DNA of 64,000 nt. It comes from Gammaproteobacteria bacterium. Lineage in GTDB: Bacteria; Pseudomonadota; Gammaproteobacteria; Ga0077536. The stretch spans positions 248,001 to 312,000 of the forward strand of contig JAJFJQ010000028.1 in the NCBI GenBank assembly GCA_021773835.1. Reading direction: 5' to 3'. Positions 28,636-41,424 of the stretch are shown one piece after another. The number at the start of each line of letters is the position of its first letter. Position 1 is the first letter of the stretch. The notes under the pieces were generated by a model. That model was given only the letters and a program-made list of their open reading frames with translations. It searched no databases and was not told the origin of the DNA. A program made the position numbers and the translations under genes.

Positions 28636-29964
28636 GTGCTGCTTGTAATGCTTGCAAGTGATATCCGTCGACTTTGCCTAATCATCGGCTTCGCGATAAT
28701 CGCGGGGTGGGCAATTGGCAACATCTTACTGTCGCTACTTGTCGCTGTGCTACTGTATTGCGCGTGGCTACACCAGCAGGTGGGCCAGCTACTGCGCTGG
28801 ATCCGGGACCGCAAGCACACGCCGGCACCCGAACCGCGTGGTGTATTCGAAGACTTGTGCCGCGAGCTCGACTACCTCAGAGATCGCGATAAAAAACGCA
28901 AAAAGAAACTTCGCGCCTATCTCAAGCAGTTCCAGCAAGCGACTCGAGCCTTACCGGACGGTACCGTCGTACTCGATGAACTCGGGTCGGTAAAATGGGC
29001 CAACAAAGCCGCTACCGCCACCCTCGGTATTCGCTGGCCGGACGACAATAATCAGCGAATCACTAATTTAGTCCGCATGCCGGAACTCGTTGAGTTCATC
29101 GATGTAGCGACGAAAAAATCAAGTATTGATGTCGCCTCTCCAGTCGACCCTGAAATCCGGCTCAATATTCGCCTTACACCCTATGGTAACAACCAACGTT
29201 TATTCGTTGCGCGCGACATCACCCAATTACATCGCACCGATCAAATCCGAAGCGACTTTGTGGCCAACGTTTCCCACGAGCTCAAAACACCGATCACAGT
29301 GCTGCGCGGGTACCTAGAAACGATGAGCTCACAACAAGAACTGTGCCCGCCCGCTTGGCAACCGGGTCTTGAACAGATGGGAAATCATGTTAAACGGATG
29401 CAAGCGGTCGTTGAGGATTTATTGACGCTTTCGAAGCTGGAACAAAACGATCACGTTGCTGACCACGCACCGGTTCCCGTGGCGGAGATGATCACGGATA
29501 TCCATCGGCAGGCGCAAAACCTTGAGGACCATTCGGATCATATTTTCGTACTCGAAATTGACACCAACCTTGAAATACTCGGATCGAGCAACGAACTATT
29601 CAGCTGTTTTTCAAATCTCGTTTTTAATGCGGTTCAATACACTGCCGCACGTGGCGTCATAGAAATTCAATGGTACCGTGATGAATACGGGGCCCATTTT
29701 TCCGTCAAAGACAATGGCAAAGGGATCCCGGTGGAAAAAATTCCGCGCTTGACAGAGCGCTTCTATCGAGTGGATAGATCCCGTGCACGGGCTCTTGGAG
29801 GGACAGGACTTGGGCTCGCTATCGTCAATCATGTCCTCTCGCGACATCAAGCGACCCTACACGTGGAAAGCGAAGTCGGGCTTGGGAGTACGTTTCGATG
29901 CGACTTTCGACCAGAATCAATTGTCGCAGCACAGGTCCATGACGCCGAAGATCAGTCGGCTTAA
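28636..29964 (+). CDS. phoR: Phosphate regulon sensor histidine kinase PhoR
   Basis: Inner-membrane kinase that phosphorylates PhoB when phosphate is low. Two adjacent membrane helices (about residues 12-46), charged linker (60-97), PAS domain (about 98-195), and HisKA with phosphorylated His214 (VSHELKTPITVLRGYL). The HATPase domain includes NLVFNAVQYT, DNGKGIP and GGTGLGLAIVNHV. As in E. coli PhoR there is no large periplasmic sensor, consistent with signalling through Pst and PhoU. The start is either GTG 28636 (442 aa) or ATG 28648 (438 aa); neither has a strong binding site. The stop shares TTAA with the phoU stop. Confidence 0.96.
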   Translation: MLLVMLASDIRRLCLIIGFAIIAGWAIGNILLSLLVAVLLYCAWLHQQVGQLLRWIRDRKHTPAPEPRGVFEDLCRELDYLRDRDKKRKKKLRAYLKQFQQATRALPDGTVVLDELGSVKWANKAATATLGIRWPDDNNQRITNLVRMPELVEFIDVATKKSSIDVASPVDPEIRLNIRLTPYGNNQRLFVARDITQLHRTDQIRSDFVANVSHELKTPITVLRGYLETMSSQQELCPPAWQPGLEQMGNHVKRMQAVVEDLLTLSKLEQNDHVADHAPVPVAEMITDIHRQAQNLEDHSDHIFVLEIDTNLEILGSSNELFSCFSNLVFNAVQYTAARGVIEIQWYRDEYGAHFSVKDNGKGIPVEKIPRLTERFYRVDRSRARALGGTGLGLAIVNHVLSRHQATLHVESEVGLGSTFRCDFRPESIVAAQVHDAEDQSA

Positions 29965-30686
29965 TTTTTTGACGAGAGCTTCAATTCCTGCTCAATGTCT
30001 TCAAGCGACGTGTGCCGTACGTCCTTACCCTCGACAAAATAGATGATGTACTCACCAATATTATTGGCGTGGTCGCCAATACGTTCGAACGCGCGCACGG
30101 CGAGTACGGCGTTTAACACCTGAGAGATACTACGAGGATCTTCCATCATGTAGGTGATGAGTTGCCGCATGATGGCATTGTTTTCTTCATCCACTTCCGG
30201 GTCTTGTTTCGCCACATGAAACGCGGCCTGCGAATCCATTCTGGCAAACGCATCGAGCACCTCATGCAACATCCGTTTTACGTGATTGCCCATCGAGAGA
30301 ATGCCAACGTAATATGACTTAGGACTTTCCGAAGTCGTTAATTCGAGCGCCATGCGCCCGACCTTTTCGACCTCATCACCAATGCGCTCAAGATCCGTGA
30401 TGGTCTTACTAACCGCTAGAACCAAGCGAAGGTCGCCCGCGGCGGGCTGGCGTCTAAGCAATATTCGTGTGCATTCCTCATCGATTTCAACCTCAAGGGC
30501 ATTGACCTTGTAGTCATTAGTAGCAACGTACTCAGCTGCTTCGGAGTCACTGTTGCCGAGGGCGCTCAGTGCCCTGGTCAAATGGTCTTCAACTAACCCC
30601 CCCATCGCGAGCACCTTCGCACGCAAGTCATTTAATTCATTGTCGAATTGCTGAGAAATATGAACTGGGATTTGTCTCGATGCCAT
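29961..30686 (-). CDS. phoU: Phosphate signalling protein PhoU
   Basis: Negative regulator that links PstB activity to PhoR. Two three-helix PhoU repeats (about residues 8-115 and 118-225), each with a conserved E-x3-D-rich helix; the first contains ILLRRQPAAGDLRLVLAVSK and the second RAFERIGDHANNIGE. 241 aa. ATG start. Last gene of pstSCAB-phoU, converging on phoR with a 4-base overlap at the stops. Confidence 0.97.
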   Translation of the reverse strand: MASRQIPVHISQQFDNELNDLRAKVLAMGGLVEDHLTRALSALGNSDSEAAEYVATNDYKVNALEVEIDEECTRILLRRQPAAGDLRLVLAVSKTITDLERIGDEVEKVGRMALELTTSESPKSYYVGILSMGNHVKRMLHEVLDAFARMDSQAAFHVAKQDPEVDEENNAIMRQLITYMMEDPRSISQVLNAVLAVRAFERIGDHANNIGEYIIYFVEGKDVRHTSLEDIEQELKLSSKN

Positions 30687-30701: not shown

Positions 30702-31553
30702 CTAGCCGTAGCGGCCGGTTATGTAATCTTCCGTTTGTTTCTTGTCCGGGTTAGTAAAAATCTTGTTGGTGTCGCCGAATTCGATTAAATCACCCAAATA
30801 CATAAACGCCGTGTAGTCGGAGACGCGCGTGGCCTGCTGCATATTGTGGGTGACGATGACGATGGTGTAGTCCTGCTTCAGTTCGTAGATAAGTTCTTCG
30901 ATTTTCAGGGTCGATATTGGATCTAGAGCTGAAGCTGGCTCGTCGAGCAAAAGGACTTCCGGCTCAATCGCAATCGCGCGGGCGATAACCAGCCGTTGTT
31001 GCTGTCCGCCAGAAAGGCTTAAAGCGCTTTCGTGGATCCGGTCTTTTACCTCATCCCAGAGGGCGGCGGCACGTAAGGATCGCTCTACCGCCGTGTCCAG
31101 TACACGCCGATTTTTAATTCCTTGGATGCGAAGTCCGTAAGCGACGTTTTCATAGATCGATTTCGGAAACGGATTGGGTTTTTGAAACACCATACCGATG
31201 CGGCGCCGAAGATTTGCTACATTGACTTCTCGATCGTAGATGTCTTCATCGTGCAAATATATTGAGCCGTTAATCGTGACGCCGTCGATGAGGTCGTTCA
31301 TCCGGTTGAAACACCGGAGCAAGGTCGATTTTCCGCAGCCGCTTGGCCCGATGAACGCGGTGACCATTTTCTCAGGGATCGACATGTTGACCCCGTTTAG
31401 CGCTTGTTTTTCGCTATAGAAGAGGTCGAGATCCGCTACTGTCAAACAGACATCGCGTCCTCCGAAGTCCACTGGCGCTGGGGCATCCGTTGCGAGCGGT
31501 TCGTTCTCCAATGGTTCCGACATAGGCAGCACTTTTTCTTGGGGCTCACTCAT
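30702..31553 (-). CDS. pstB: Phosphate ABC transporter ATP-binding protein PstB
   Basis: ATPase of the high-affinity phosphate importer. Walker [10 protein letters not shown] at residues 69-77, Q-loop QKPNPFP, signature LSGGQQQR, Walker [13 protein letters not shown] and His switch VTHNMQQA. 283 aa; about 30 extra, Pro/Glu-rich residues precede the usual N-terminus. ATG start. It lies 42 bases after pstA and 15 before phoU. Confidence 0.97.
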
Positions 31554-31595: not shown

Positions 31596-33266
31596 TCAGC
31601 TTTCTGCGGCATTGTACTTCTCTCGCAATTGATTGCGAATGCGAATTGCCGCGATATTTAACGTAACGATCAATATAACGAGCAACAATGCGGTGGCGTA
31701 TACCAGCGGGCGTGCGGCTTCGACATTTGGACTCTGGAATCCTACATCATAAATGTGGAAGCCAAGGTGCATGAATTTGCGGTCGACGTGTAGGAACGGA
31801 AAGTTACCATCCAACGGCAAAGATGGTGCCAGCTTGACCACGCCGACCATCATTAGCGGAGCGACCTCACCGGCAGCGCGTGCGATCGATAATATAAGAC
31901 CCGTCATCATCGCCGGGGTCGCCATCGGTAATACCGTGCGCCAAAGCGTTTCCGCCTTGGTTGCACCGAGCGCCAAACTTCCTTCCCGGATAGCACGAGG
32001 GATCCGCGTTAAGCCTTCTTCGGTGGAGACGATCACCACCGGAACGGTCAGGATCGCTAGCGTAAGCGCCGACCACAGGATCCCCGGGGTTCCAAAGGTT
32101 GGCGCCGGCAGCGCTTCGGGGAAAAAGATCTGATCAATATTGCCGCCGAGAAAATAGACAAAGAACCCGAGCCCGAAAACACCATAAACAATAGAAGGCA
32201 CGCCCGCCAGATTATTGACAGCGATCCGGATCGTCCGCGTCAACAACCCTTGGTGCGCGTATTCACGCAGATAAATCGCCGCAATAACGCCAAACGGCGT
32301 GACAAAAACCGACATCAAAATCACTAGCAAGACGGTACCGAAAATAGCCGGAAACACGCCGCCTTCGGTATTTGCCTCGCGTGGCTCTTCAGAAATGAAT
32401 TCCCACACTTTCGCGCCGTAGTGGAGAATCTTATCGCCAAGGTCCATCTTGTTCGGGCGAAAGGCGCGCACCAGTTTTGCGACCGGCAACTCGACAGTTT
32501 GGCCGGTTACCGTCGTAACCGTAATTGAATCTCGCCCGGCCTTAGCATAAAGATTCGCCAGCTCATCATTAAATTCGTTGTAACGCGAATTCAGCTCCAC
32601 GCGGTCACGTCCTAGACGCTGAAATACCTCGGGGTCATTTTTTCCGCCTAGCTGTAGCGCCTTTTCACGCAATCGTAATCGTTCCATCGCATAATTTATT
32701 TTGCCAATTTCCTTTTTCTCTATGCGGTGAATCTGTGTCTCAAGCTCCGTTTTACGAGCAATACTTTTCTGAAGTTCGCCCCAGGTGGCATCCCCGGCGG
32801 CAACCACATTGCCGCTGTGCTTTACCTCGGTTAGGAATCCATAAAAATTACCCCATTCGTCGCGTTCGATAACAACCGCGTCGAGTGGAATGGAGCGTGA
32901 TTTTATGTCGGTTTCGTTAACCCAACTAAAGTCGGCTCCGGCGATATCGCGGTTACCGGATTTCACGAGATAGCGGGTGATAATTTCAACGCCTTCCGGG
33001 ACGTAGTCACCACGACCGCGAACCCGTGCCGCGCTTACTTTCTCTTCATCGACAATACTGCCGAGCAGGGTAGACACCGTGCCGTCGGACTCAGCCAGCT
33101 CAATTGATTGCACCGTCGCAGGCCAAAAATGCCCCAGCCCGCGAACGGCGATCAGCAACAACAGGCCGAACACCATCACGAGGTTGAGGCTTACCATGCC
33201 GGCGCTCAACCAGACCCATGGGCTTCCACTGCGTACCCAATTTGTTATTCGCGCTGGCTGGGTCAC
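31596..33266 (-). CDS. pstA: Phosphate ABC transporter permease PstA, large form
   Basis: Membrane subunit of the phosphate importer. After the first helix (about residues 18-42) there is a periplasmic insertion of about 260 residues. Within it, residues 165-245 are highly charged and probably a coiled coil (RKTELETQIHRIEKKE). The MetI permease core follows (about 305-545) with the EAA-loop segment REGSLALGATKAETLWRTVLP. 556 aa, nearly twice E. coli PstA (296). Large PstA also occurs in Pseudomonas. GTG start with a weak binding site; 9 bases after pstC. Confidence 0.95.
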   Translation of the reverse strand: MTQPARITNWVRSGSPWVWLSAGMVSLNLVMVFGLLLLIAVRGLGHFWPATVQSIELAESDGTVSTLLGSIVDEEKVSAARVRGRGDYVPEGVEIITRYLVKSGNRDIAGADFSWVNETDIKSRSIPLDAVVIERDEWGNFYGFLTEVKHSGNVVAAGDATWGELQKSIARKTELETQIHRIEKKEIGKINYAMERLRLREKALQLGGKNDPEVFQRLGRDRVELNSRYNEFNDELANLYAKAGRDSITVTTVTGQTVELPVAKLVRAFRPNKMDLGDKILHYGAKVWEFISEEPREANTEGGVFPAIFGTVLLVILMSVFVTPFGVIAAIYLREYAHQGLLTRTIRIAVNNLAGVPSIVYGVFGLGFFVYFLGGNIDQIFFPEALPAPTFGTPGILWSALTLAILTVPVVIVSTEEGLTRIPRAIREGSLALGATKAETLWRTVLPMATPAMMTGLILSIARAAGEVAPLMMVGVVKLAPSLPLDGNFPFLHVDRKFMHLGFHIYDVGFQSPNVEAARPLVYATALLLVILIVTLNIAAIRIRNQLREKYNAAES

Positions 33267-33275
33267 GATAATGAT

Positions 33276-35537
33276 CTACAGGTTGCTGTATTTGACACGT
33301 AGTCGTTGGCGCACGATTTCCGCCACCGTGTTTACAACGAAAGTCACCAGAAAAAGTACGAGAGCCGCCAAAAACAACACGCGAAAATGTGTGCTATTGA
33401 CTTCTGACTCCGGCATTTCTACCGCAATATTGGCCGACAAGGCACGAAATCCCTCGAAGATATTGAGATCCATAATTGGTGTGTTTCCGGTTGCCATGAG
33501 TACGATCATGGTTTCGCCAACCGCACGCCCAAGACCGATCATGACCGCCGAGAATATACCGGGACTAGCGGTTAGAATTACGACGCCAATAACCGTTTGC
33601 CAAGGTGTCGCACCGAGCGCCAAGGATCCTGAAGTCAGGTGCCGCGGGACGCCAAAAACCGCATCCTCACTTATCGAAAATATCGTTGGGATAACGGCGA
33701 AACCGATCGCCATCCCTACGACCAAGGAGTTGCGTTGGTCATAATCTATGCCCATTTCGGAGGACAACCATAACGGTAAACTGCCGTCGAAAAATGTCGC
33801 TTCTAGCGGATGGCTCAGAGCAAGCGAAAACCATATCGCAAGACAAACCACAGGAATCAAGATTGCCGCCTCCCATCCATCGAGCACAAAACCTCGAATA
33901 CTCGGCGGCAGGCGTTCGAGTAAAAATGAAACCAACACGAACGATGTCGGAACTAAAACAAAGGCAAGAAAAACGCCCGACAAATATGTTTCGATCAATG
34001 GTGCAAGCCAAAGGCCGGCAAGAAATCCTAAAATCACGGTGGGTAGCGCAGCCATAACCTCCACGGAGGGCTTAACGAAAGATCGCATTTTGGGGGTCAT
34101 GAAATAAGCGGTATAAACGGCACCTAAAATCGCCAGAGGGATGGCGAAAAGCATCGCGTAGATGGCCGCTTTGATGGTACCAAAGGTTAGCGGCGTAAGA
34201 CTAAACTTCGGCTCGAAATCACTGCTCGCAGAAGACGATTGCCAGATATATTCAGGCTCGCTCCGACTTTCATACCAAACCTTACCCCACAGTGATTGCC
34301 ACGACACTTCAGGGTGCTCGTTATGTACCCGATGCATCGAGACCATGCCACTGTCGGTCACGCTGAGCATTGCATCGGCGCGGGGGCTTATTGATACCGC
34401 GTGCAGCTTTTCCTCAGCAATATTATCAACCAACAACACTCGGCCAGCCGTAGTATGAAATAGGCCGACGTTCCCACGGCTGTCAGTAGCCAAAAATCCC
34501 TTGCGGTAGTATTCGGGGGCCAATTTATTAACCGCGGAATCGAAGGCGCGGAAGCCCCGAACGCGTTCGAGCGAGTAATTGTTGTTATCGTCGCGCAGCG
34601 GAAACCATTGCTGAATCTGCCCACTAGAGTCACCGACGAGTATAGAGATACCGCCGCTTAAAAATTCAATTGAGCTTAACGTTCCGCCGTCGGCTGCCAC
34701 GTTAACGAGATCTAACAGGCGCGGATCCGTTTTGTCTTGGATATTGAAATAGCTTATTTGGCCATCGCTAGAGGCGGCATAAAGCTCACGCTGATCGACG
34801 TCGACCAGCAGAAATGCTAGCGGATAGTCGATACTCGGGAGCTCTATATGATTTACTTCTAAACTTAGCTCGTCACCGAGCAGCGATTCCTCCACAGCGA
34901 CGTGCGTCATTATCATGGCACCATCTGTCGTGGCCGCAACAATTGTGGTTTCTTCCAGGCTGGAGTTGGCCGCCATCAATGCGATCGAGCCACGGTCACC
35001 AATACCGAGATCGATTGGCGTAGGGCCTAGGGGATATTCCAGTGATGGGGTGATGTGCCGTTTATCGTTGGGATAACTGATTGCATAATGCGGTCGGACA
35101 ACGATCGCACGGCCATTATCGACCGCCAAGTAGACACTTCCCTCGTTGGGATCGCCGCTGGCGCTGGCGAAGATCTTGCGCTCATCGCCGTCAAGGACAT
35201 CGCCTTGTTCAATTGGTGTTCCGTTAGCGGTACGAAAAAAAGCATAACGTCCGTCGGCAGTGATCGCGAAACCGATCTCTGCGTATTCGTCGAGCGCCAG
35301 ATGAACGATATCTGTCCCGCTGTACGGTAGTTGATATTTCGCTATCTGTTCGATGCGTGCGCCGGCAAACATCGGGGCAACGACGTAAAACAGGTAAAAG
35401 AAAATCATCACGATCGCGACGATCACCCCGATCCCGCCGACCGCCATGGTCCACCCAAAGGCGCGATCTTTGAGCGTGCGCCAGTTGCGCTGGCGGATCT
35501 CAGCCCGCTCCGTCGCATCGCTCAACGCATTTTCCAC
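33276..35537 (-). CDS. pstC: Phosphate ABC transporter permease PstC with periplasmic beta-propeller-like insertion
   Basis: Membrane subunit partnering PstA. First helix about residues 32-56, then an insertion of about 390 residues (58-450). It has repeating beta-strand units ending in patterns such as GRYAFFRTANG, ELYAASSDGQISYF, ISILVGDSSGQIQQWF and KGFLATDSRGNVGLF, typical of WD40/PQQ-like propeller blades. The MetI core follows (about 452-750) with ALGATPWQTVIGVVI. 753 aa against 319 in E. coli. GTG start preceded by GAGG about 8 bases upstream. 23 bases after pstS. Confidence 0.95.
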   Translation of the reverse strand: MENALSDATERAEIRQRNWRTLKDRAFGWTMAVGGIGVIVAIVMIFFYLFYVVAPMFAGARIEQIAKYQLPYSGTDIVHLALDEYAEIGFAITADGRYAFFRTANGTPIEQGDVLDGDERKIFASASGDPNEGSVYLAVDNGRAIVVRPHYAISYPNDKRHITPSLEYPLGPTPIDLGIGDRGSIALMAANSSLEETTIVAATTDGAMIMTHVAVEESLLGDELSLEVNHIELPSIDYPLAFLLVDVDQRELYAASSDGQISYFNIQDKTDPRLLDLVNVAADGGTLSSIEFLSGGISILVGDSSGQIQQWFPLRDDNNNYSLERVRGFRAFDSAVNKLAPEYYRKGFLATDSRGNVGLFHTTAGRVLLVDNIAEEKLHAVSISPRADAMLSVTDSGMVSMHRVHNEHPEVSWQSLWGKVWYESRSEPEYIWQSSSASSDFEPKFSLTPLTFGTIKAAIYAMLFAIPLAILGAVYTAYFMTPKMRSFVKPSVEVMAALPTVILGFLAGLWLAPLIETYLSGVFLAFVLVPTSFVLVSFLLERLPPSIRGFVLDGWEAAILIPVVCLAIWFSLALSHPLEATFFDGSLPLWLSSEMGIDYDQRNSLVVGMAIGFAVIPTIFSISEDAVFGVPRHLTSGSLALGATPWQTVIGVVILTASPGIFSAVMIGLGRAVGETMIVLMATGNTPIMDLNIFEGFRALSANIAVEMPESEVNSTHFRVLFLAALVLFLVTFVVNTVAEIVRQRLRVKYSNL

Positions 35538-35560: not shown

Positions 35561-36532
35561 TTAGCTATCTAGCAGCGGTTCGTATTTTTGCACAACTTTA
35601 GATGGCAACGGTATATATCCGTCTTTTATGACGACACCCTGACCGGTTTTCGAAAGAATCATTCGAATAAACTCTCGTTCCAATGGCAGTAACCCGTTGT
35701 TGGGGTGTTTGTTTACGTAAACATACAGAAATCTCGACAGGGGAAACTGTCCGGATATTGCGTTCTCTGCGGTTGCTTCAACGAAATCGCCGTCATCCTT
35801 CTTCGACAGCGGTACCGCGCGCACACCTGAAGTACGGTAACCGATCCCGGAATAACCAATACCATTGATTGATTTCGTCACGCCCTGCACGACTGACGCC
35901 GAGCCCGGTTGTTCGTTTACCGAATTCTTGAAATCACCTTTGCACAACGCCTTTTTCTTAAAATAACCATACGTGCCAGATACCGAATTCCGGCCATAGA
36001 GTTGCACCGGGCGGGTCGACCATTCACCGGTCATGCCAAGGTCGCCCCACACCGAAACATCCCGCTCGTAACCACATTTTCGAGTCGCCGAAAATATTGC
36101 GTCTACCTGGGGAATTGAAAGCCCGGCGATGGGATTGTCTTTATTGACGTAAACGGCGAGTGCATCGATGGCAACGGGAATTGCCGTTGGTTTATATCCG
36201 TGCCGCGTCTCGAAGGATTCGATCTCTTTATCTTTCATCTTGCGGCTCATCGGACCTAGGTTTGAGGTACCCTCGGTTAGCGCCGGCGGAGCGGTACTCG
36301 AGCCCGCTGCTTGAACTTGGATGTTGACGTTCGGATACAATCGTTTGAATTCTTCACTCCAGAGCGTCATCAGGTTCGCCAAAGTGTCGGAACCAACGCT
36401 CGAAATGTTGCCCGATACGCCGCTTGCCTTGACGTATTCGGGTAATGCGTCATCGACGGTAGGTGCCGAAAATGCTGGCGCCATAGTCGTAAAAGCAATC
36501 GCCGAAACAACGCTAACTATCAGATTTTTCAC
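35561..36532 (-). CDS. pstS: Phosphate ABC transporter periplasmic phosphate-binding protein PstS
   Basis: Periplasmic phosphate receptor. Signal peptide residues 1-23 ending APAFSA, then the PBP-like domain with the phosphate-contact segments [20 protein letters not shown] and [18 protein letters not shown]. 323 aa. The GTG at 36532 has a strong GGAGG six bases upstream and begins a standard signal peptide. An upstream TTG or ATG near 36592 would lie inside the predicted -10 of the Pho promoter and is excluded. First gene of the pst operon. Confidence 0.96.
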
Positions 36533-36591
36533 CGCTTCCCTCCATTTCCCGCGCCTTAAATGAGCGCGCCGAGTTGCCTCAAGACGGTGCA

Positions 36592-36625
36592 ATTAGACGG
36601 TTAGATTGTTACAGGCGTATGACAG
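36592..36625 (-). promoter_or_regulatory. Pho box and -10 element of pstSCAB-phoU
   Basis: On the minus strand: CTGTCAT (36619-36625), ACGC, CTGTAAC (36608-36614), then 10 bases and TCTAAT (36592-36597). This is close to the E. coli Pho-box consensus (CTGTCAT repeats with 4 bp between) with correct spacing to -10. It places pstS under PhoB and leaves a leader of about 50 bases. Confidence 0.85.
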
Positions 36626-37838: not shown

Positions 37839-39917
37839 ATGGATGCGAAAACAACCGTTGACCTAAATAACTACGAACTCTATATCAACCGAGAGCTGAG
37901 TCAGCTTGAGTTCAACCGCCGTGTGTTGGAACAAGCGAAAGACAACTCCAACCCCCTGCTAGAGCGGCTCAAATTTCTATGCATTGCGAGCAGCAACCTC
38001 GATGAATTTTTCGAGATCCGGGTCGCCGGGCTCAATCACCAAGTTGTTTATCGGTCGGAAACTGCTGGACCAGACGGTATGTCGCCGATCGAGCAACTCA
38101 AACAGATCAGCCAGGCGGCGCACGAACTCGTGAGTGAGCAGTATCGCGTATTGAACGAAGATCTCACGCCACTATTAGCCAAAGAAGATATCCATTTTCT
38201 ACGTCGTACCGAATGGAATACAAAGCAATCAAGTTGGGCAAAACGCTTCTTCAATCGCGAGCTGATGCCGGTGCTAAGCCCCATTGGGCTCGATCCATCG
38301 CATCCGTTCCCACGAATACTCAATAAAAGTCTCAATTTTCTCGTCTCCCTGGAAGGCAAGGACGCGTTCGGGCGTGACAGCGCAATCGCGATTGTGCAGG
38401 CACCACGGGCACTTCCGCGCATCATCAATGTGCCGGAGACCTATGGCAACGGGCCGCACGAATTCGTTTTTTTGTCATCACTGATCCATGCGCATGTCGA
38501 TGACATATTTCCAGGCATGCAAGTAACCGGTTGTTATCAATTTCGGGTCACGCGGGATAGTGATTTGTTCGTCGATGATGAAGAAGTAGAGGATCTCCTG
38601 CGTGCGCTTGAAGGTGAACTACACCAACGCCGGTTCGGCGACGCCGTGCGCTTGGAGATAGCCGACGACTGCCCAGTGGAAATGATCAGCCTGCTCCAGC
38701 ATGAGTTTGATCTCACTGACGAGGCTATCTATTTGTGTAAAGGCCCGGTTAACCTCGCACGCTTAATGGCCGTCCCGGACATGGTTGCCCGTGCGGATCT
38801 TAAATTTCCTGTGTTTACACCTGCCCGGCCACGCCGGCTTACGATGACCCCCAACATGTTCGATGCCATTAGACGCGGAGATATTTTGCTGCATCACCCG
38901 TTTCAATCGTTCCTGCCCGTCATTGAGTTCTTACGCCAAGCGGCGTCCGACCCCGGGGTCTTAGTCATCAAACAGACCTTGTACCGAACTGGGCCAGACT
39001 CGCCGGTAGCCAAGGCCTTGATTGACGCGGCGCGCTCGGGCAAGGAAGTAACGGTGGTCGTTGAGCTCCAAGCACGGTTCGACGAACGCGAAAATATAGA
39101 ACTCGCAGCGAAACTCCAGGAGGCCGGCGCGCATGTGGTCTACGGGGTTGTCGGGCATAAAACCCATGCAAAGATGATCCTAGTGGTGCGCCGAGAAGGC
39201 CGCCAATTACGGCGATACATACATCTCGGCACGGGAAATTACCACCCGAGTACGGCGCGACTGTATACCGACTATGGGTTGTTTACCTGTGATAAAGCGT
39301 TCGGCGCCGACGTGCAGAAAATTTTTCATCAGATAACGGCGCCAGGACGCGCTGGGAAACTTAAAAAATTGCTGCAGTCACCGTTTACGCTACACAAAAC
39401 GATGGTAGACCTTGTCGAACGCGAAGCGGCGATTGCACGCGCCGGCCGGCCGGCCCGTATCATCGCAAAAATGAACTCACTGACTGAAGTCCGGGTTATC
39501 CAGGCACTCTACGAGGCCTCGCGTGCTGGAGTCAAAATAGATTTGATCGTGCGTGGGCTCTGCGCCTTACGCCCAGGAATAGAAGAGGTGTCGGAAAATA
39601 TCAGCGTTCGTTCGATAGTAGGTCGGTTTCTGGAGCACACACGGATATTTTGTTTTCATAACGATGGACAACAGGAAGTCTATCTATCCAGCGCTGATTG
39701 GATGGATCGAAATTTTTTCAATCGAGTTGAAACTTGCTTTATCGTGGAAGAAAAACGCCTACGCGATAGGATCATTAAGCAGGGCCTGAATAACTATCTA
39801 ACCGACAACATGCGTGCGTGGCAACTGCGCAGTGACGGGACTTATATTCGTACAAAACCCGGCTCTAGTCGTCCTCGGGATGCGCAGCAGATGCTACTCG
39901 AACAACTGAGCGATTGA
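37839..39917 (+). CDS. ppk1: Polyphosphate kinase 1
   Basis: Builds polyphosphate from ATP at the inner membrane. Order: N domain (YINRELSQLEFNRRVLEQA), head domain, and two phospholipase D-like catalytic domains containing GVVGHKTHAKMILVVRRE and LRRYIHLGTGNYHPSTARLYTDYGL, around the phosphorylated histidine region. The late motif YLSSADWMDRNFFNRVE is also present. 692 aa, matching E. coli (688). ATG start. It converges on ppx. Confidence 0.97.
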   Translation: MDAKTTVDLNNYELYINRELSQLEFNRRVLEQAKDNSNPLLERLKFLCIASSNLDEFFEIRVAGLNHQVVYRSETAGPDGMSPIEQLKQISQAAHELVSEQYRVLNEDLTPLLAKEDIHFLRRTEWNTKQSSWAKRFFNRELMPVLSPIGLDPSHPFPRILNKSLNFLVSLEGKDAFGRDSAIAIVQAPRALPRIINVPETYGNGPHEFVFLSSLIHAHVDDIFPGMQVTGCYQFRVTRDSDLFVDDEEVEDLLRALEGELHQRRFGDAVRLEIADDCPVEMISLLQHEFDLTDEAIYLCKGPVNLARLMAVPDMVARADLKFPVFTPARPRRLTMTPNMFDAIRRGDILLHHPFQSFLPVIEFLRQAASDPGVLVIKQTLYRTGPDSPVAKALIDAARSGKEVTVVVELQARFDERENIELAAKLQEAGAHVVYGVVGHKTHAKMILVVRREGRQLRRYIHLGTGNYHPSTARLYTDYGLFTCDKAFGADVQKIFHQITAPGRAGKLKKLLQSPFTLHKTMVDLVEREAAIARAGRPARIIAKMNSLTEVRVIQALYEASRAGVKIDLIVRGLCALRPGIEEVSENISVRSIVGRFLEHTRIFCFHNDGQQEVYLSSADWMDRNFFNRVETCFIVEEKRLRDRIIKQGLNNYLTDNMRAWQLRSDGTYIRTKPGSSRPRDAQQMLLEQLSD

Positions 39918-39927
39918 TCGAAAGTAA

Positions 39928-41424
39928 TCACGCGATCTTGAGTTTATAACCCGCTGCCTTCAGATAAATAATTTCTTGTTCGAGATCGGCGGTGGTTAGT
40001 TGATGCTCGGCTAACCATTGTGTGGGGAAGTCTAATCGAACTTTGTCTTCTGCTACTTTTATTCCAATAGCCGGCAGCGGTGTCTCACTCCTTCGGCGAT
40101 GCAGTACTACCGATAAGCGCAACAAAATGCACAGTAGTTGCAAACGCTTGCGCGGTGGTTCCGGCAAGGTTTCGAACTGTTCTAGCGGGAACTTCCTACG
40201 GTGTCCGCGCACCATCACGGCCAGTTGGCGCTGCTCGCCGCGCGAAAAACCGGGCATATCAAGATGCGCTAGTAGATAGCTACCATGCTTGTGGTATTGG
40301 CTATGCGCGATCGCGCTACCGATCTCATGCAATGCGCTTGCCCAACGCAGGATACGTTCCATCGCACCGCTCTCAATTTCCCATGGTTCGCCGATCTGCG
40401 ACCACAAACCCTTCGCTGTGACGAACACGCGATGACCCTGAGCACGATCGATGCCATATCGATCGATCAAACTATCGACCGACTGTTCACGAACGTCTTC
40501 GTGCTGGATCCGGCCGAGTAAATCGTAGAGCAGACCTTCGCGTAAGGCGCTCGCCGATACGCGCATATGGTCGATGCCGAAGGTGTGGAAGATCCCGAGC
40601 AAGATCGCCACGCCGCCGGGGAATACAGGGCGGCGTTCGTCAGACAAGCCGGATAAATCAACCTTGTCGATATGCCCGGCGTCGATCAGTACGTCGCGCA
40701 ATTCTTCTAGCGAAGCCTTGGTGATGCCATCTTTACTCCAACCGTTGCCAACGATAACGTCGCGAATCGCGAGATTGGTCCCGGAAGCACCGATCACCGA
40801 CTGCCAACCCTGCTGTCGATAACTCGCCTCAATTGGTTCCAGTTCTTGTCGCGCCCTAAGCTCCGCGGTTTGCATACGCCCAGCGGTAATTTCACCGTCA
40901 GCGAAATGTGCTGCGCTCATACCGACGCAACCCATGTGTAAACTTTCCATGGTCAAGGGGTCGAAATGCCGCCCCAATATCAGCTCCGTGCTGCCGCCAC
41001 CAATATCAATAACAAGGCGTAAATCCGATTCGTCTTCCAATCCATGTGACACGCCAAGGTAGATGAGCCGCGCCTCCTCCCGCCCTGCGATCACATCGAT
41101 CGGATAACCCAATGCCGCTTCCGCTCGCGCGCGGAAGTCCTGCCCATTGCGGGCCTTACGTAAGGTATTCGTGCCAACCACACGGACACTGTCGGTGTCG
41201 AAGTCGCGCAACCGTTCACCGAAACGGTGTAGACATTCGACCGCACGCGTAATTGCGTCGTCCTTAAGTCGATTATCCGGGCCAAGACCGGCTGCGAGTC
41301 GAACCATCTCACGCATTCGATCGACGACTTTCAAATGACCGCTCCTTGTATCGGCAACGATCATATGGAAACTGTTAGACCCGAGATCGACGGCAGCTAT
41401 CGATCCTGGCACATCATGATTCAC
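39928..41424 (-). CDS. ppx: Exopolyphosphatase / guanosine pentaphosphatase family protein Ppx
   Basis: Degrades polyphosphate from the ends or acts on pppGpp; sequence alone does not separate Ppx from GppA. Actin-like ASKHA fold with phosphate-1 motif IAAVDLGSNSFHMIVAD and GREEARLIYLGVSH, phosphate-2 DIGGGSTELILG, and an HD-like C-terminal region (ASALHEIGSAIAHSQYHKHGSYLL). 498 aa. GTG start with GGAG eight bases upstream. Facing ppk1 supports a role in polyphosphate turnover. Confidence 0.93.
   Translation of the reverse strand: MNHDVPGSIAAVDLGSNSFHMIVADTRSGHLKVVDRMREMVRLAAGLGPDNRLKDDAITRAVECLHRFGERLRDFDTDSVRVVGTNTLRKARNGQDFRARAEAALGYPIDVIAGREEARLIYLGVSHGLEDESDLRLVIDIGGGSTELILGRHFDPLTMESLHMGCVGMSAAHFADGEITAGRMQTAELRARQELEPIEASYRQQGWQSVIGASGTNLAIRDVIVGNGWSKDGITKASLEELRDVLIDAGHIDKVDLSGLSDERRPVFPGGVAILLGIFHTFGIDHMRVSASALREGLLYDLLGRIQHEDVREQSVDSLIDRYGIDRAQGHRVFVTAKGLWSQIGEPWEIESGAMERILRWASALHEIGSAIAHSQYHKHGSYLLAHLDMPGFSRGEQRQLAVMVRGHRRKFPLEQFETLPEPPRKRLQLLCILLRLSVVLHRRRSETPLPAIGIKVAEDKVRLDFPTQWLAEHQLTTADLEQEIIYLKAAGYKLKIA

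Follow-up and report, generated by a model that had tools for sequence, protein, structure and literature searches.

A long form of the Pst phosphate transporter with a predicted WD40-like propeller in PstC and a paired insertion in PstA

The phosphate permease subunit PstC encoded in the window, the 64,000-nucleotide stretch of gammaproteobacterial DNA analyzed here, carries a 392-residue insertion after its first membrane helix, most of which is predicted to fold as a seven-bladed WD40-like propeller. The partner permease PstA carries an insertion of its own (243 residues), and the two matched domains, both predicted to be periplasmic, add roughly 600 residues to the transporter. About one third of the sampled gammaproteobacterial genomes use this long form (88/276 among the matches listed). 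Long PstC sequences are already known and present in databases. A literature search that covered titles, the starts of abstracts and passages, with subscription papers mostly outside it, returned no paper that connects PstC with a propeller. New, as far as the literature searched shows, are the propeller fold, the PstA arm matched to it, the additional membrane helices and the strict pairing of the insertions. Phosphate signaling from Pst to PhoR has been investigated in the E. coli short form (PMC5775613).

The pst locus and the conserved permease core

The pst genes are on the minus strand and read in the order pstS-pstC-pstA-pstB-phoU. The first gene, pstS (35561..36592), encodes a 343-aa protein of the TIGR02136 subfamily (274 bits against a cut-off of 206.6) whose first 60 residues are without cysteine. 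The second gene, pstC (33276..35537), starts with GTG at 35537 and encodes 753 aa. It is followed by pstA (31596..33266, 556 aa), pstB (30702..31553, PF00005) and phoU (29961..30686, PF01895). The phoR gene (28636..29964, plus strand; PF11808, HisKA and HATPase_c) is convergent with phoU. Adjoining the pst genes is a convergent pair consisting of a polyphosphate kinase gene with four PP_kinase domains (37839-39917, plus strand) and a Ppx/GppA phosphatase gene (39928-41424, minus strand).

PstC passes the PF00528 permease-core threshold (26.6 bits, cut-off 26.4). Its score against the TIGR02138 equivalog is 191.1 bits for a cut-off of 196.45; the genome search, with scores added across the frame, gave 198.8 bits. 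The value just below the cut-off may explain why a P. aeruginosa relative carries the bare name 'ABC transporter permease subunit'. The pst operon context and the transport residues both identify PstC as a phosphate permease. The genome is 98% complete, and the only PstC found in it is the long form, alongside a single TIGR02136 PstS.

E. coli PstSCAB (9k3s, 9k3x, 9k3y) has the operon, the permease core and the PstC transport residue R237 in common with the long form. The E. coli PstC has 319 aa (chain 9k3s_B) against 753 aa for the window reading frame, both lengths as given in the earlier note; it has no large TM1-TM2 domains, and its alignment leaves no room for a second insertion found in the long-form core. 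This core (residues 450-753; 33279..34190, minus strand) was delimited by PF00528 and by alignment to E. coli PstC, in which residues 446-520 align with 71-144 and those from about 600 onward with about 167-312. The second insertion (residues 520-601; 33735..33980, minus strand) was located by hydropathy, the structure model and alignments, and is about 70 residues longer than the same region of four short control PstC proteins. It lies between TM3 and TM4, contains two hydrophobic helices and is present in the P. aeruginosa relative too. The two extra helices give PstC eight predicted membrane helices, which were assigned manually on the basis of hydropathy and the model.

The alignment places R671 opposite E. 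coli PstC R237, and E675 opposite a Glu counted there as 241; both residues are invariant in 66/66 rows. A comparable Arg/Glu pair in PstA, R463 and E467, is invariant in 69/69 rows. According to the available text of PMC5775613, changes to E. coli PstC Arg237 and Glu240 and to PstA Arg220 block transport and not signaling. Because the transport residues are kept, the long-form machine should be a phosphate importer, with its additions on the periplasmic side.

Fold and orientation of the PstC propeller

AlphaFold2 was used to model PstC from a 66-row alignment (A1) with row identities to the window protein of 37-79%. The rows were taken from 72 long-form loci, minus 6 with broken or off-frame matches and one partial locus (L096), plus the window. 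The model has a mean pLDDT of 79.7 and a pTM of 0.68, and the pLDDT blocks over residues 61-400 average 86. TM1 was assigned to residues 30-57 (35367..35450, minus strand) from hydropathy and the model. In this prediction of PstC alone, residues 61-405 (34323..35357, minus strand) form 28 strands, four to each of seven blades, in a closed WD40-like propeller, in line with the propeller-like repeats pointed out in the earlier note. Blade 7 takes its outer strand from the beginning of the domain (first strand, 61-69); after six full blades come its three other strands, and closure was derived from this strand order rather than from coordinates. The insertion had been described as some 390 residues separating the first helix from the core, close to the 392 found. 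A propeller spanning residues 58-450 had also been proposed, and this stands for residues 61-405 but not for residues 406-449 (34191..34322, minus strand), which are a separate and far more conserved linker to TM2.

Structural searches point to a WD40-like fold. Foldseek comparison with the PDB gave 1,957 matches, 1,805 of them at E <= 0.001, with a best E of 5.6e-15 and a TM-score by target of 0.66. The list is headed by eIF3i, G-beta and WDR5; the best 50 of the 1,957 are mostly WD40 proteins or G-beta-containing complexes. VIA-align returned a Z of at least 8 in 964/964 aligned chains, the best of which was AIP1 (Z 26.2, rmsd 3.4 Å over 296 residues). Support that does not depend on the model came from the family sequence profile, which matched the WD40 protein LST8 over positions 181-390 (E 8.7e-5). 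Pfam propeller matches on PstC were weak (E 0.008 to 0.14) and all far under cut-off, and the propeller did not reach the curated threshold of a WD40 sequence model (best propeller-model E 0.008). Fold, strand order and closure are like those of the seven-bladed WD40 propellers LST8, eIF3i, G-beta and WDR5, whereas identity to these proteins is about 10% and the PstC propeller sits in a membrane permease, by prediction outside the cytoplasm. As modeled, the PstC propeller is a WD40-like fold that is not placed in the WD40 sequence family. The blades had been described as WD40/PQQ-like, and the WD40 half of that description agrees with Foldseek, VIA-align and the LST8 profile, but PQQ propellers are absent among the matches listed. 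A PQQ or YVTN propeller is unlikely; no such Pfam model matched, and none occurs among the Foldseek and VIA-align matches listed.

The side of the membrane was predicted from charge and helix count. Loops on the same side as the N-terminus have a K+R density of 0.16, against 0.017 in the opposite loops without the insertion and 0.067 with it; two of the five inner PstC loops are less clear-cut (0.05 and 0.08). Residues 58-449 contain 29 K+R and 56 D+E. The insertion is five helices away from the motif SLALGAT, which we take to be the EAA-type coupling loop on the cytoplasmic side, and this count places the insertion outside. A periplasmic propeller in the TM1-TM2 loop, the side favored in the earlier note, is therefore supported by prediction. 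A cytoplasmic location of the insertion was rejected on the charge bias and the helix parity.

In WD40 proteins, strand order is tied by convention to the top and bottom faces, and the faces of the PstC propeller were assigned from strand order without coordinates. Both ends of the propeller leave the bottom face in this order, so the bottom face should look at the membrane. Conservation is higher in the bottom loops (0.50) than in the top loops (0.40) when compared per loop (permutation p 0.026), and also by residue with Gly and Pro excluded (p 8e-6). The gap is due mainly to the top D-A loops (0.31), as the top B-C loops (0.49) are similar to the bottom loops (0.53 and 0.47).

Mean conservation within PstC is 0.45 for the propeller, 0.80 for the linker, 0.55 for the second insertion and 0.86 for the rest of the core. 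Within the protein the propeller diverges most quickly, with a mean distance of 0.69 against 0.30 for the core; R327, R345 and T363 within it are invariant in 66/66 rows. Ten of the 44 linker columns are invariant and 9 further columns are at least 90% conserved. The linker was modeled with low confidence (mean pLDDT 68 for blocks 401-450).

The PstA insertion and the possible role of the paired domains

The PstA insertion, the strict pairing, the second PstC insertion and the conserved linker were all overlooked in the earlier note. PstA was modeled from a 69-row alignment (A2) after 3 of 71 PstA rows were dropped as truncated; L096 had no PstA row. Overall confidence is fair (pLDDT 69.5), and 24/24 blocks over residues 51-290 are at 70-89. 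The insertion (residues 48-290; 32397..33125, minus strand) occupies about 240 residues between TM1 and the core and is modeled as a beta domain, a helical hairpin (158-206 and 212-243; 32538..32795, minus strand) and further strands. The PstA core superposes on E. coli PstA with a Z of about 14. The tip of the first hairpin helix has a conservation of 0.64 and is the best-conserved part of the insertion besides the stretch before TM2.

Pairing was measured in 276 gammaproteobacterial genomes with a completeness of at least 90%. Genomes with the PstC propeller were picked by hand among the matches listed, using extension of the match into the propeller as the criterion. Both large insertions are present in 88 genomes, neither in 188 and one alone in 0, among the matches listed. 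The genomes are related, and a Fisher p for this pairing is no true probability; part of the co-occurrence stems from shared ancestry and from the genes being in one operon. Propeller and PstA-insertion distances are correlated after removal of both cores (partial r 0.32, 63 rows), with a permutation p of 0.0005 from a label permutation that ignores the tree.

The most plausible reading, still a tentative one, is that PstS docks in the periplasm on the propeller and the PstA arm together, with the linker coupling this dock to the gate, in the manner of MalF-P2. The two extra domains would make up one periplasmic superstructure. The propeller would turn its bottom face and both ends toward the membrane, held by the conserved linker running into TM2, and the PstA arm would reach the propeller. 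Together they would cradle phosphate-loaded PstS above the permease mouth. Docking would raise the local PstS concentration and shift the permease gate, and from the cytoplasmic side PstB, PhoU and PhoR would sense the state of the gate. E. coli PhoR is described as without a significant periplasmic domain in the part of PMC5775613 that was available, and a gate change would thus be read via PstB and PhoU.

MalF-P2 of the maltose importer is likewise a large periplasmic domain in an importer permease loop, a location that is predicted for the PstC propeller. It differs from the propeller in fold and in loop, and is located between TM3 and TM4 of MalF. MalF-P2 reportedly interacts with MalE and signals to MalK, judging by the titles of the studies. 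In the accessible portion of a simulation study, one MalF-P2 segment (residues 91-271) directly contacts MalE (PMC3150292).

Docking is favored because the insertions share their occurrence in 88 genomes (among the matches listed), their distances co-vary, and conservation is seen in the bottom loops of blades 5 and 6, in the linker that leads to TM2 and at the tip of the PstA hairpin. The suggestion in the earlier note that the propeller could bind PstS, another receptor or a ligand would be compatible with what is predicted here. The fast change of the propeller speaks against a strict PstS dock, unless one face alone matters. The short E. coli Pst works without either domain, which also counts against the docking reading. 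If the domains do control PstS docking, deletion of one with the core intact would separate docking from transport and signaling.

Some of the same observations suit a structural role, in which the propeller, linker and PstA arm would mainly stabilize the PstC-PstA heterodimer and its enlarged membrane part and would have no direct role with PstS. The large insertions go together in every genome that has either (among the matches listed), their distances co-vary, the second insertion is shared by the window and P. aeruginosa PstC, and conservation of the linker exceeds that of the propeller. This role is doubtful, although it deserves some weight, as about 600 extra residues are a lot for a clamp that the short Pst manages without.

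WD40-like propellers are usual protein-binding platforms, and this counts toward a sensory or regulatory site in which the top face or channel would bind a ligand or an envelope protein, such as a phosphatase, lipoprotein or porin, and tune uptake or the PhoR signal. The top D-A loops vary among lineages, as a lineage-specific partner would allow, but with a conservation of only 0.31 such loops may be simply unconstrained, and a site of this kind is unlikely. It is quite improbable that the propeller and PstA hairpin reach a third envelope partner, such as a porin for phosphate in the outer membrane or a phosphatase of the periplasm, in a trans-periplasm phosphate assembly that E. coli lacks. 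Neutral elaboration, with the propeller as an old tolerated insertion without selected function, would fit its fast change but is highly improbable against a PstA partner in 88/88 genomes with either insertion (among the matches listed) and invariant residues within the propeller.

Distribution and relation to other Pst forms

The 72 long-form loci found include 17 named Vibrio and 6 Gilvimarinus, and others are in Motiliproteus, Methylophaga, Methylococcales and Chromatiaceae records. Records labeled P. aeruginosa and Aeromonas caviae match PstC over at least 80% of its length. The P. aeruginosa match is 48% over nearly the full length, with pstS, pstA (558 aa), pstB and phoU around it. In a phylum sample of 397 genomes, whose class mix was not tallied, propeller plus linker match in 67, and all 67 belong to the class of the window; at least 2 of them (G503 and G637) match only from PstC residue 348 onward. 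A single-genome artefact or fusion was ruled out by the 72 loci and the 88/276 genomes (among the matches listed).

Mobile elements were also searched. A search of 50,697 phage records with residues 58-410 gave no match (E 1e-3). PstC is matched by 123 plasmid records; among the 40 matches listed, 2 cover at least 80% and the other 38 start at residue 387 or later, which is the core only. No PstS-like frame was found in the flanks (at most 6 kb, less near the end of a contig) of nine long-form loci (L039, L044, L049, L053, L058, L064, L067, L077 and L102), and the PstS of these loci may be encoded elsewhere. A Haloferula-labeled (Verrucomicrobia) contig of 9,132 bases (L070, SLAV01000073.1) encodes a long PstC and PstA and may be misbinned.

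Eighteen short and mid control systems were used for comparison. Six short PstC (310-324 aa) adjoin PstA frames of 291-325 aa. In L135, L140 and L141 the PstA frame (503-645 codons) begins inside or ahead of the PstC frame and hence overruns the gene; about 310 of its codons lie past the PstC end. Seven mid pairs have a PstC of 406-495 aa beside a PstA of 393-452 aa, with DUF3708 in PstC and DUF3333 in PstA in 7/7 (L133, L134, L136, L137, L138, L143 and L145). The mixed pairs (2/18, L142 and L144) have a PstA with DUF3333 and a PstC (335 or 298 aa) without DUF3708, and both of these PstC are placed in the mid group of the tree. Among the systems sampled, pairing has no exceptions in the long form; in the mid form it is the rule but is sometimes broken.

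The DUF3708/DUF3333 Pst likewise has an insertion after TM1 in both permeases, but its subunits are shorter than those of the long form, and the long form matches neither Pfam model, even with E allowed to reach 10. The tree contained 66 long PstC (the window and 65 found by likeness), 1 divergent long PstC, 11 short and 7 mid PstC, and 6 PstA, and several of its branches are long. The long PstC cores (67 rows) are on one side of a branch with a support of 100/98, which makes one origin likely. Judged from these sequences, the long form is a third Pst architecture beside the short form of E. coli and the DUF3708/DUF3333 form, and is one clade here. The divergent long PstC (L146, genome G242) is an 882-aa frame beside a 582-aa PstA; it is placed beside the other long forms on a long branch, and this placement is unsure.

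The annotated PstC of the P. aeruginosa record (L147:1516-1768, NZ_CP070468.1) starts at 1768, has 677 aa and is without TM1. Likeness to the window PstC continues for another 58 codons ahead of that start; the frame stays open there, encodes a clear TM1 and offers upstream ATG codons, and the annotated start looks too late.
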